Shown here: piece after piece, positions 13,007 through 17,316 of the stretch
Layout: every line of letters begins with the position of its first letter
Position numbering within the stretch: position 1 is the first letter of the stretch
Assembly (NCBI GenBank): GCA_025455045.1
Contig: JALONJ010000015.1
Span: forward strand, 1-32,063
DNA length: 32,063 bases
Direction: 5' to 3'
Origin: Microscillaceae bacterium
Lineage (GTDB): Bacteria; Bacteroidota; Bacteroidia; Cytophagales; Microscillaceae
Notes under the pieces: generated by a model
The model's database searches: none
What the model saw: the letters and a program-made list of their open reading frames with translations, nothing else
What the model was told of the DNA's origin: nothing
Made by a program: the position numbers and the translations under genes

Positions 13007-13636
13007 ATGAAAAAAGCTTTTGAACTTTGGGAATACGAAGAAATTGAGAATGAATTTAATTTGACTTCGGTTGAAAATTTATCTTTACTGACGGAGTGGT
13101 TGAATGTTTCAATAAAATTGAGTGTTACAGAAAAACAAACCATTGTTGATTTAAGAAATAAATTGCGAAAAAAAGCCGATGCTTGGAACGAAGATGAGCT
13201 TAAGTTCTTCTTTATCAGTCCTTTAATCAATTTGGTGAATTATAATTCCGACAAATACTCGGCATTTACCCAACGCCCTTTATCGGCTAAAATCAAAGAT
13301 GTGGAAGTAAGTGGGCGAGTGGAATTTATGTTGGCTAAAGGCAAACAAAACCCAAGAGAGCCGTTTTTTTTCCTACACGAATACAAACAAGAGCGCAAAC
13401 GAGACAACGACCCACTTGGTCAGTTATTGATTTCAATGTTGGCGGCACAAGAAAATAATACCTTAAAACATCCTTTGTATGGCTGTTATGTAACCGGCAG
13501 GTTTTGGTTTTTTGTGGTTTTGGAAGGCGATAAATATGCCACAAGTTTGGCTTATGATGCTACACAAGATGATATTTTTCAAATTGTAGCTTCTTTGCAA
13601 GAGATAAAAAATTATATTGAAAAGTTTTTGATTTAA
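13007..13636 (+). CDS. Putative PD-(D/E)XK nuclease-like protein
   Basis: This 209-aa soluble protein has an N-terminal helical half (to about residue 60), then a section reading FFISPLINLVNYN, SGRVEFMLAKG and FFFLHEYKQE. The spacing of an acidic residue, then a hydrophobic strand with E-Y-K (HEYKQE, about residues 124-129), fits the E-x-K arm of the PD-(D/E)XK fold. The C-terminal half has GCYVTGRFWFFVVLEG. Similar uncharacterised proteins recur in Bacteroidota. I cannot assign a substrate. The ATG at 13007 is used; an ATG at 12994 is out of frame. It may form a unit with the gene at 13672, with a 25-bp dyad between them. Confidence 0.65.
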   Translation: MKKAFELWEYEEIENEFNLTSVENLSLLTEWLNVSIKLSVTEKQTIVDLRNKLRKKADAWNEDELKFFFISPLINLVNYNSDKYSAFTQRPLSAKIKDVEVSGRVEFMLAKGKQNPREPFFFLHEYKQERKRDNDPLGQLLISMLAAQENNTLKHPLYGCYVTGRFWFFVVLEGDKYATSLAYDATQDDIFQIVASLQEIKNYIEKFLI

Positions 13637-14486: not shown

Positions 14487-15143
14487 TCATAAAATCAATT
14501 GATAATCATCGAGTGCGTTTTTCTCAAAAGTTTCCAGCATTGTTTGGCTAGTTGGGATGATGTGAACTGCCGTCATTCCCATTGCCCGCGCCGCTACCAC
14601 ATTGTCCCAATTGTCGTCTAAGAGGACAGTTTGCTCAATTTGCAAATGATTTTCTTGCAAAACCTGTTCATAAATCTCGACTTCCGGTTTGCGCTTGCCT
14701 AAGTAATGCGAATAATAAACTTTTTCAAACAAATGCTCAAGTGATTGATAATCAGTACTTTGGGCAAACAGTGCCTCAAAACAAAGCTGATGGATTTCGT
14801 TGGTGTTGCTCAATAAAAACAGGCGGTAATTTTTTTGTAAATTTTTTAGCAATTGGATTCTCGCTGGGGGAAAATCCAAAATCAAAGCATTCCAAGCCTC
14901 ATCAATGGCGGCATCGGTCCAATCAACTTGGCAAATTTGGCGCAAATCAGCTCGAAAAGTTTGGGCAGAAACCAAGCCCTTTTCAAACTGAATAAACAAT
15001 GAATGGTGAAAAATTTCGGCATTGATGGCTTGCTGCGAAGGGGGCAGTAGCTCGGCAAACCGATTGAGGGTGAGGGCAGTGTCAATGTTGAGTACCACAT
15101 TGCCAAGGTCAAAAATCAGGTTACGAATATTTTTTGAGTTCAA
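14487..15143 (-). CDS. HAD-superfamily phosphatase, YihX-like
   Basis: This 218-aa protein belongs to HAD subfamily IA. Motif I is IFDLGNVVLNID (nucleophile Asp12, with Gly at the +2 position as in YihX-type enzymes). Motif II is LFLLSNTNEIH and motif III is GKRKPEVEIYEQVL (Lys). Motif IV is VLLDDNWDNVVAARAMG. YihX dephosphorylates glucose-1-phosphate in E. coli; the substrate here is unknown. A TTG start at 15143 is used, as no ATG lies in frame before motif I. The C-terminus is encoded by sequence containing a 25-bp dyad core (14500-14508). It is convergent with the zinc-ribbon gene and divergent from the tRNA. Confidence 0.88.
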   Translation of the reverse strand: MNSKNIRNLIFDLGNVVLNIDTALTLNRFAELLPPSQQAINAEIFHHSLFIQFEKGLVSAQTFRADLRQICQVDWTDAAIDEAWNALILDFPPARIQLLKNLQKNYRLFLLSNTNEIHQLCFEALFAQSTDYQSLEHLFEKVYYSHYLGKRKPEVEIYEQVLQENHLQIEQTVLLDDNWDNVVAARAMGMTAVHIIPTSQTMLETFEKNALDDYQLIL

Positions 15144-15158
15144 TTTTGTGAAATTTTA

Positions 15159-15190
15159 TTTGGGTTTTTCGTTACAAAGGTATAAATTTG
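15159..15190 (+). promoter_or_regulatory. Promoter of the split tRNA gene
   Basis: TTTG (15159-15162), 20 bases and TAAATTTG (15183-15190) match the Bacteroidota -33/-7 consensus TTTG / TAnnTTTG. Transcription would start near 15197. The leader contains a hairpin AAAAACCATTG / CAATGGTTTTT (about 15202-15228) ending right at the mature tRNA 5' end. Confidence 0.7.
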
Positions 15191-15229: not shown

Positions 15230-15610
15230 GGACCCATAGCTCAGTCGGTTAGAGCATCTGACTCATCAACGAGTTCTTTGATATATTGGTTTCTTTTAGC
15301 TAAGTAAAGAAACCCAAAATATTCAAAAAATTATATATGGTGCGTCTATTGAGAAATTGATAGAATGAAAGGGGTTAATTCGGAAAAACCTGACCGCGTA
15401 AAAACGATGGCAATTCCGAGCCAAGTTCACAAAAACCATCAAAGTAGTGAAAAGGTGTAGAGACTAAAGTGTGAGGAGGTAACCAATAAGCACTTATCAA
15501 CGCCCCTCACCTGACCGAGTAAAGTCGAAGGTGGTGATATAGTCCGACTACATAGCGAAAGCTGTGGAAAGTGAATCAGGTGGTCGCAGGTTCGAGCCCT
15601 GCTGGGTCCA
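15230..15610 (+). tRNA. tRNA with CAU anticodon (Met or Ile2), split by a group I intron
   Basis: The exons are 15230-15266 and 15574-15610. Joined, they give a full cloverleaf. The acceptor GGACCCA pairs with TGGGTCC. The D arm is AGCTCAGTCGGTTAGAGC. The anticodon stem CTGA/TCAG holds the loop CTCATAA (anticodon CAT at 15264-15266). The T arm is GCAGGTTCGAGCCCTGC and the discriminator is A, with CCA not encoded. I cannot decide between elongator tRNA-Met and lysidine-modified tRNA-Ile2, which share this anticodon. The intron position after base 36 is the site used by the known Azoarcus tRNA-Ile(CAU) intron. Confidence 0.93.
15267..15573 (+). ncRNA. Group I intron (IC3-like) in the anticodon loop
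   Basis: This 307-nt insertion shows the conserved group I core in order. P is AATTCGGAAAAACCTGAC (15377-15394), Q is AATTCCGAGCCAAG (15412-15425), R is GGTGTAGAGACTAA (15454-15467) and S is ATATAGTCCGACTA (15537-15550). GACTA in R pairs with TAGTC in S to form P7. P2 is visible as GGTTTCTTT pairing with AAAGAAACC, and a P9 hairpin CATAGC-GAAA-GCTGTG has a GNRA loop. It follows a 5' exon ending in U and ends in G, as expected. P, Q, R and S closely resemble the Azoarcus tRNA intron. There is no open reading frame, so no homing endonuclease. It should self-splice to release the mature tRNA. Exact splice sites are inferred from the restored tRNA loop. Confidence 0.92.
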
Positions 15611-15624
15611 CAATTATTTTCATA

Positions 15625-15659
15625 AAAGCCTATAAATCAATGATTTGTAGGCTTTTTTT
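15625..15659 (+). terminator. Rho-independent terminator of the tRNA gene
   Basis: AAGCCTATAAATCA pairs with TGATTTGTAGGCTT (one mismatch or wobble) and is followed by TTTTTTT, 15 bases after the tRNA. Confidence 0.88.
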
Positions 15660-16088: not shown

Positions 16089-16331
16089 ATGTTACTAAAA
16101 AATATTGCCTTGAATTCAAAACTTGAAATCGTAAGCTCAAAAAATCTTTACAAAATTAACAAATTCTTAGGTCGGCGAACATTTCAGTTTAATGACTTGT
16201 TTAGTAAATTGCAGAAAAACTCGAAAAAATTGAACTTATTTGAAGTTGATGCCAAAGATTTGGATTGTAAGTCATTCATTATCAGTGTATTAGCTATATT
16301 TAATTATGAAATTTCCCACTCTTTACGATAA
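16089..16331 (+). CDS. Doubtful small ORF upstream of moaA
   Basis: This 80-aa ORF starts with an ATG lying inside a 25-bp dyad variant (16070-16094) and overlaps the first 26 bases of moaA in another frame. The Lys/Asn-rich product (LNSKLEIVSSKNLYKINKFL segment) shows no recognisable domain or signal. It may be translated and coupled to moaA, or be a chance ORF in AT-rich leader sequence. Confidence 0.3.
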   Translation: MLLKNIALNSKLEIVSSKNLYKINKFLGRRTFQFNDLFSKLQKNSKKLNLFEVDAKDLDCKSFIISVLAIFNYEISHSLR

Positions 16332-17316
16332 TCACAATCGCCCTATCAATTATGTACGTTTGGCAGTAACCGACCGTTGCAATTTGCGGTGTTTTTATTG
16401 TATGCCCGAAAATGGCATCAAATACCTCCCCAAGTCGGCTTTGTTGTCGTACGAAGAAATGGAGCGTATGTTGCGCATATTGGCACAAATGGGGGTCAGC
16501 AAAGTTCGGATTACGGGTGGCGAGCCTTTTGTAAGGCGCGATTTGGTGCCATTTATGCAGCGTATCAGCCAAATAGAAGGTATCAATCAAATTCACCTCA
16601 CAACCAATGGCGTATTTACCGGCGATTATCTGCCTCAGCTCCAATCCATAGGCATTGCCTCGGTCAATTTGAGTTTGGATACGCTTGACCAGCAACGATT
16701 TAAAGAAATCACCCGCCGCGATGATTTTGGCAAAGTAATGCAAACTTTGGAGGGCTTGCTCCGATATAATATTCCAACCAAAATCAACGCCGTGATTATG
16801 GCGGGCAAAAATACCCAAGATATTATTCCCTTGACCGAACTCACCCGCCACACGCCGGTTTCGGTGCGTTTTATTGAAGAAATGCCTTTCAATGGCGAAG
16901 GCGCGCGCGAAGAATCCGATTCGGTTGATTTTTGGAGTTTTCGCCGTATTTTAGCCGAGTTACAAACCCACTACCCACAGATTTATAAAATTCCTGACGG
17001 CAAACATTCTACTTCGTACAACTACGCCATTCCCCATCATCAGGGTACGGTAGGTATTATTGCGGCGTTTTCGCGGACTTTTTGTGGCACTTGCAATCGG
17101 ATTCGAGTTACCGCTCAAGGTACACTCAAGACTTGCTTGTATGATGATGGGGTGCTAGACCTCAAAAAACTAATGCGTGAGGGGGCAAGCGATGAAGAAG
17201 TAAGTCAAGCTCTGCTCTATGCGTTTCGCCACCGCCCCAAAGACGGTTTCGAAGCCGAAGCCAATCGCTTGAATCATAGCCCAGTCAGTGAGTCGATGTC
17301 GACAATTGGTGGGTGA
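16306..17316 (+). CDS. moaA: GTP 3',8-cyclase (molybdenum cofactor biosynthesis)
   Basis: MoaA is a radical SAM enzyme that converts GTP to 3',8-cyclo-7,8-dihydro-GTP, the first step of molybdopterin synthesis. In this 336-aa protein the N-terminal cluster motif is CNLRCFYC (Cys25, Cys29, Cys32), followed by VRITGGEPFVRRDL. The C-terminal second [4Fe-4S] site is FCGTCNRIRVT with a further Cys in GTLKTCLYD. The protein ends in STIGG; the C-terminal Gly-Gly is required for MoaA function. Length and motifs are complete. No other moa, mog or moe gene lies in the window, so the pathway is dispersed. Confidence 0.97.
   Translation: MKFPTLYDNHNRPINYVRLAVTDRCNLRCFYCMPENGIKYLPKSALLSYEEMERMLRILAQMGVSKVRITGGEPFVRRDLVPFMQRISQIEGINQIHLTTNGVFTGDYLPQLQSIGIASVNLSLDTLDQQRFKEITRRDDFGKVMQTLEGLLRYNIPTKINAVIMAGKNTQDIIPLTELTRHTPVSVRFIEEMPFNGEGAREESDSVDFWSFRRILAELQTHYPQIYKIPDGKHSTSYNYAIPHHQGTVGIIAAFSRTFCGTCNRIRVTAQGTLKTCLYDDGVLDLKKLMREGASDEEVSQALLYAFRHRPKDGFEAEANRLNHSPVSESMSTIGG

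Follow-up and report, generated by a model that had tools for sequence, protein, structure and literature searches.

A group I intron in a Bacteroidota tRNA(CAU) gene of probable Ile2 type, and its relatives in bacteria and phages

An interruption in the anticodon loop of a tRNA gene in a member of the Bacteroidota raises three questions: what is the insert, which tRNA does the gene encode, and how did the insert get there? The locus lies in a 32,063-nt stretch of a Microscillaceae contig (hereafter the window). Reading the coordinates directly bears out the original prediction that a gene with a CAU anticodon is split by 307 nt on the forward strand (15267-15573), exactly after anticodon position 36. 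ARAGORN called no tRNA in the window with its intron option off; once introns were allowed, it called an interrupted tRNA with an insert of 307 nt. When the exons are joined at 36/37, the product folds as a tRNA(CAU) in which every stem is paired and the anticodon loop reads CUCAUAA. The proposal that the insert is a group I intron was likewise upheld by the Rfam covariance model RF00028, which matched over its full length (1-253) at a score of 69 bits (E 1e-15), above the cut-off of 50 bits. Rfam gave no further hit in the window, and RF00028 matched nowhere else in the genome, a 6.8-Mb assembly of 697 contigs that is about 95% complete. No ORF of at least 100 aa lies within 15267-15573, and the intron thus encodes no endonuclease of its own. 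The features of the locus are collected in Table 1. Upstream of the tRNA gene, the TTTG-N20-TAAATTTG arrangement fits what we take to be the Bacteroidota promoter consensus, TTTG/TAnnTTTG. Downstream lies a MoaA-like radical SAM gene of molybdenum cofactor synthesis (16306-17316, forward strand).

Table 1. Features of the split tRNA gene, its intron and its immediate surroundings (positions in the window)
Feature	Position	Strand	Basis or remark
HAD-family hydrolase gene, divergent neighbour of the tRNA gene, also in many relatives	14487-15143	-	PF00702, synteny
Bacteroidota-type promoter-like site: TTTG (15159-15162), 20 nt, TAAATTTG (15183-15190)	15159-15190	+	sequence read
5' exon, tRNA(CAU) positions 1-36	15230-15266	+	sequence read, ARAGORN, fold of joined exons
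Group I intron, 307 nt, without ORF	15267-15573	+	RF00028, 69 bits
P1 loop with A+U-rich hairpin; place of the HNH ORF in relatives	15268-15338	+	fold, comparison
AGTTCTTTGA inside the P1 loop, common to ORF-bearing introns	15272-15281	+	
Internal guide GGUG, pairs with 5' exon CAU (U.G at the splice site) and intron C1	15339-15342	+	alignment
P2, GAAA tetraloop	15345-15364	+	95% standard pairs, covarying
P3	15371-15375 with 15502-15506	+	alignment
P4, encloses P5	15379-15384 with 15415-15420	+	alignment
P5, inside P4	15389-15396 with 15405-15410	+	alignment
P6	15420-15422 with 15454-15456	+	alignment
P6a	15426-15430 with 15447-15451	+	alignment
P7, guanosine-binding helix with bulged A	15460-15466 with 15540-15545	+	paired in 93/93, no paired change
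P7.1, extra hairpin between P7 and P3	15467-15495	+	30/31 cells paired, Bacteroidota set
P8	15508-15533	+	alignment
P9, GAAA tetraloop	15551-15566	+	sequence read, alignment
3' exon, tRNA(CAU) positions 37-73, no encoded CCA	15574-15610	+	sequence read, fold
Terminator-like hairpin, then T run	15624-15656	+	terminator scan

The fold was examined by projecting the helices of the window intron onto an alignment of 93 CAU introns, with the partners slid by 1-3 positions as a control. Standard pairs fill 4179 of 4634 cells over the 93 introns, where the slid control gives 1574-2158. In seven Bacteroidota introns, that of the window among them, they fill 357 of 367 cells (116-186 in the control). 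P3, P4, P6 and P7 are 99-100% standard pairs across the 93 sequences, in agreement with the earlier description of a plain P, Q, R and S core and P7, and P3 and P7 form the pseudoknotted core of a group I intron (P3-P9, 93 sequences). Outside the Bacteroidota, P9 (45%) and P7.1 (64%) align poorly. Every core helix is present, and the majority of the variable ones show covariation with relatives. Relative to the majority, the window carries two-sided changes that keep the pair in P2, P3, P4, P5, P6a and P8; in P4, two pairs are changed on both sides compared with most relatives. Base 15420 is a possible partner in either P4 or P6.

The placement of P1 was settled by comparison, because each relative has GGUG directly before the P2 hairpin. 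Two earlier candidates, GACUC/GAGUU (15260-15264 with 15271-15275) and AUCAA/UUGAU, were dropped once this became apparent; these first two pairings broke the U.G rule or left an over-long joint to P2. In the adopted pairing, U36 stands opposite a G of GGUG at the 5' splice site, the last base of the intron is the G at 15573, and the 71 nt between the 5' splice site and the guide form an A+U-rich extension. All 93 aligned introns have a CAU exon upstream and a GGUG guide just before P2. As GGUG fixed where the alignment begins and the exon was located through CTCAT, the independent evidence lies in their place beside P2 and in the first base of the intron, which is C in 90 of the 93.

The guide GUG for a CAU exon is known from the Azoarcus ribozyme, and the likeness that was originally noted to this tRNA-Ile(CAU) class holds for the tRNA class, the insertion site and the guide. 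Like the IC3 intron in tRNA-Ile(CAU) of Azoarcus sp. BH72, the window intron also has GNRA loops on P2 and P9 and no ORF. Unlike it, the window intron is longer (307 nt), A+U-rich, provided with a 71-nt P1 loop and an extra P7.1, and found in another phylum. This comparison drew on the betaproteobacterial relatives L066 and L120 and on what is generally known of the ribozyme. Introns with an IC3-like core in a tRNA anticodon loop, as in the window, are also present in the Bacteroidota relatives L036, L040 and L042, but these are inserted after position 34 of another tRNA. We regard the locus, with a probability of about 0.88, as a single-gene transcription unit in which an IC3-like group I intron of the Azoarcus type splits tRNA-Ile2(CAU) at 36/37 and would be removed as follows. 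The transcribed intron would fold so that the exon CAU pairs with the guide GUG; exogenous guanosine bound in P7 would bring about cleavage after U36; and the exons would be joined at the terminal G. C34 of the spliced tRNA would then be converted to lysidine by TilS, and AUA would be read as isoleucine. Self-splicing, lysidine modification and the dependence of growth on splicing are what the sequence leads us to infer for this organism. TilS is encoded in its genome (183 bits).

Which tRNA is split deserves closer scrutiny, as the automatic label disagrees. ARAGORN prints Gln(ctg) for the window gene and its relatives, having placed the joint two bases away, and automatic annotations may contain this mistake as well. 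Taken at face value, the label means a tRNA-Gln(CUG) host with the intron between positions 34 and 35 (C34|UG), as in tRNA-Leu(UAA); the alternative join folds too, and pairing of GACUC with the GAGUU that lies just within the intron is conceivable. However, such a P1 has C-G as its splice-site pair and leaves the CAU/GGUG pairing next to P2 in 93 relatives unexplained, and the tRNA body is near those of intronless CAU genes, e.g., L208 from the same family, whereas HAD-flanked intronless orthologues, e.g., L209, read CATAA. A glutamine tRNA is thus extremely improbable.

The relatives hold three classes of CAU tRNA: the initiator (CGCGGG), a GGCGAGG...GATTCATAAC class, and a GACTCATAATCAG class, into which the window tRNA falls. 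Most members of the GACTCATAATCAG class have C4-G69 and C5-G68, and their acceptor type is that of the proteobacterial CAU genes with introns, to which group the Azoarcus tRNA-Ile gene belongs; we take C4-G69 and C5-G68 as marks of Ile2 identity from general knowledge of the identity rules. By class, by neighbours and by the acceptor stem, the window host was assigned to the lysidine-type tRNA-Ile2(CAU). That it could instead be the elongator tRNA-Met(CAU) is brought up by the name Met that ARAGORN gives to the spliced tRNA, from the anticodon alone, and by the fact that tRNA scans and a pattern search recognised no elongator Met gene in the assembly. Against this stand the acceptor type of the window class and the separate GGCGAGG...GATTCATAAC class in relatives, whose sequence fits elongator Met, and a methionine identity is therefore unlikely.

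The genome yielded 52 tRNA matches, and the only CAU gene besides that of the window is the initiator Met gene (contig C683, 10745-10817). No second Ile2-type gene was found by tRNA scans and the pattern search in this roughly 95%-complete assembly, which, as far as the assembly goes, agrees with the condition raised at first, that growth would depend on self-splicing if the split gene were the only one for its tRNA. However, as no elongator Met gene was found, the assembly misses at least one tRNA gene, and the sole-copy claim for Ile2 is provisional. Three odd tRNA-like genes occur elsewhere in the same genome, i.e., one of 121 nt with a 50-nt insert (C488, 4251-4371), a class-II-like one called Ile(gat) (C433, 3994-4077) and a partial one (C64, 278-336).

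The assembly, 95% complete and in 697 contigs, leaves room for the view that the window holds a dead gene copy with a degenerate intron and that the real Ile2 gene lies in the missing part. The window intron has the longest branch in its clade (0.6-0.74 in the intron trees), and its constraint may be relaxed. Yet P7 and the guide are intact, the changes in P2, P3, P4 and P6a are paired, which argues against decay, the exons are perfect in the fold, and the single-gene locus is conserved and has a terminator. A dead copy is very improbable on these grounds. The window intron looks intact and is an ordinary member of a family of group I introns common to many bacterial phyla and phages.

The original prediction implied that such introns are rare in this phylum, and here it did not stand: a group I match is present in 30 of 395 genomes sampled across the Bacteroidota, and in 10 of the 146 searched as relatives (source genome included). 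CAU introns recur in several Bacteroidota families and are present in genomes G002, G024, G029 and G117. Inspection and ARAGORN identified tRNA-Leu(UAA), tRNA-Arg(UCU) and initiator tRNA-Met as other group I hosts in the phylum. Loci of this kind, with introns in other tRNA genes, include L036, L038-L042 and L250-L266, and some genomes contain two or three. A pattern scan of GTDB contigs matched at least 118 stretches, in a survey biased by a pattern that favoured TG|AAT-type 3' junctions. Among the matches listed, plus the window and its relatives, 93 distinct introns at the same site could be delimited; L159 was left out owing to a false 5' exon. Among those listed, 74 are from Pseudomonadota, 8 from Bacteroidota and 7 from Planctomycetota, with one each from Verrucomicrobiota, Actinomycetota, FCPU426 and an unassigned record; single occurrences in MAGs may be binning errors. 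A 2014 review places tRNA group I introns in cyanobacteria and in alpha- and betaproteobacteria only (PMC4033280). We found no paper on tRNA(CAU) introns of Bacteroidota or phages in the open literature, a search that covered few subscription papers. By itself, the window copy only extends a textbook ribozyme family by one phylum, whereas across many phyla a tRNA gene presumably needed by the cell would rely on splicing.

The HAD hydrolase gene flanks the tRNA gene in the window, in the intron-bearing loci L032, L033 and L037, and in the intronless L209 of the same family. This is the same gene, with and without the intron. In an unrooted tree that included phage and HNH-bearing introns, the window intron falls in a Bacteroidota-only clade (100/100), which L032 joins at 98/95. 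The L033 intron interrupts the syntenic gene in a genome of the same family but clusters with the phage intron L292 (96/80, on long branches). Uniting the window and L033 in one clade was rejected at p 0.0075 once the phage introns were added, with p 0.07 for the 93 introns; in that first set, which comprised no phage introns, the test did not reject one clade holding every Bacteroidota intron (p 0.51). Separate arrivals in the same gene seem to be the simplest reading, although the long branches leave some doubt. The transfer that had been suggested for the window is upheld in an altered form: the window intron itself sits among those of its own phylum, whereas the same gene in a genome of the same family carries an intron of another lineage, and within this family the gene has seemingly received introns repeatedly. 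The window intron and the proteobacterial CAU introns may share descent, as they are alignable over the whole core and have the site and the guide in common, but the trees are unrooted.

Several Bacteroidota tRNA(CAU) introns carry an HNH ORF in the P1 loop (L032, L037, L124 and L275-L278). They share the site of the window intron and, where placed, its clade, but have an ORF of about 140 aa that is absent from the window. In L032, L037 and L124 the ORFs are 139-152 aa long and 58-64% identical to the L037 copy; the protein matches Pfam HNH below threshold and phage HNH families strongly (E to 2.5e-23). In-frame stops were seen in L276 and L277, and that of L277 looks like the natural end of the ORF; L278 ends early and its ORF may be broken. 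The cyanobacterial tRNA-fMet intron also has an endonuclease ORF, for an endonuclease of another kind; it is made mobile by that endonuclease, as the HNH-bearing CAU introns may be by theirs, but the tRNA and the site differ. Intron-type HNH was matched in 8 of 390 genomes of the order, and the source genome gave no match in this search. A small ORF elsewhere in the window (13007-13636, forward strand) has a weak C-terminal match to PD-(D/E)XK nucleases (E 2.5e-4, under the curated cut-off).

The AGTTCTTTGA motif of the window loop also occurs in the ORF leaders of L037 and L275 and in the leader of a phage gene in L282; sharing of a 10-mer was reached by 11, 18 and 51 of 2000 shuffles, respectively. 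The claim of an ORF remnant in the window comes from this one shared 10-mer, which we regard as a modest sign that an ORF was lost. The window intron is probably derived from a mobile ancestor whose P1 loop held an HNH gene, since lost; this is a weaker inference.

The intron also occurs in tRNA genes of phages. The same junction pattern matched 19 IMG/VR contigs (L286-L304). In most of them a CAU tRNA gene is likewise interrupted at 36/37, several of these genes lying within tRNA arrays, and group I scores rise to 108 bits. The complete genome of an isolate, Klebsiella phage Muenster, holds an unannotated intron scoring 104 bits (L305, about 2497-2800). In a 2014 review, the group I introns of phages are all in protein genes (PMC3984707). 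A further phage tRNA(CAU) is split by a group I intron at 36/37 (L309, 2501-2802), and some phage introns measure about 750-770 nt and may carry ORFs. HNH relatives also stand free near intronless tRNA(CAU) genes (1345-1902 in both L282 and L283, and 1360-1932 in L284), and two more phage records show a free-standing HNH gene beside an intronless tRNA(CAU) (L307, 2447-2930; L308, 2208-2908). This arrangement resembles collaborative homing (PMC3984707), what is seen here being the genes alone. Between the window DNA and named phages, only short matches were obtained. One tentative scenario, which we hold to be possible rather than probable, is that tRNA-Ile2(CAU) is a homing site shared by bacteria and phages, that an HNH gene joined an intron using the same site, that the window represents the ORF-less end stage, and that phages carry the introns between phyla. 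Since phage tRNA genes hold the same intron, phage-borne spread of tRNA introns is directly testable. In Vibrio phage vB_VpaM_R16F (L306, 1292-3782), the large terminase subunit is annotated in five pieces and one of the gaps matches a group I core; this terminase gene probably holds several introns.
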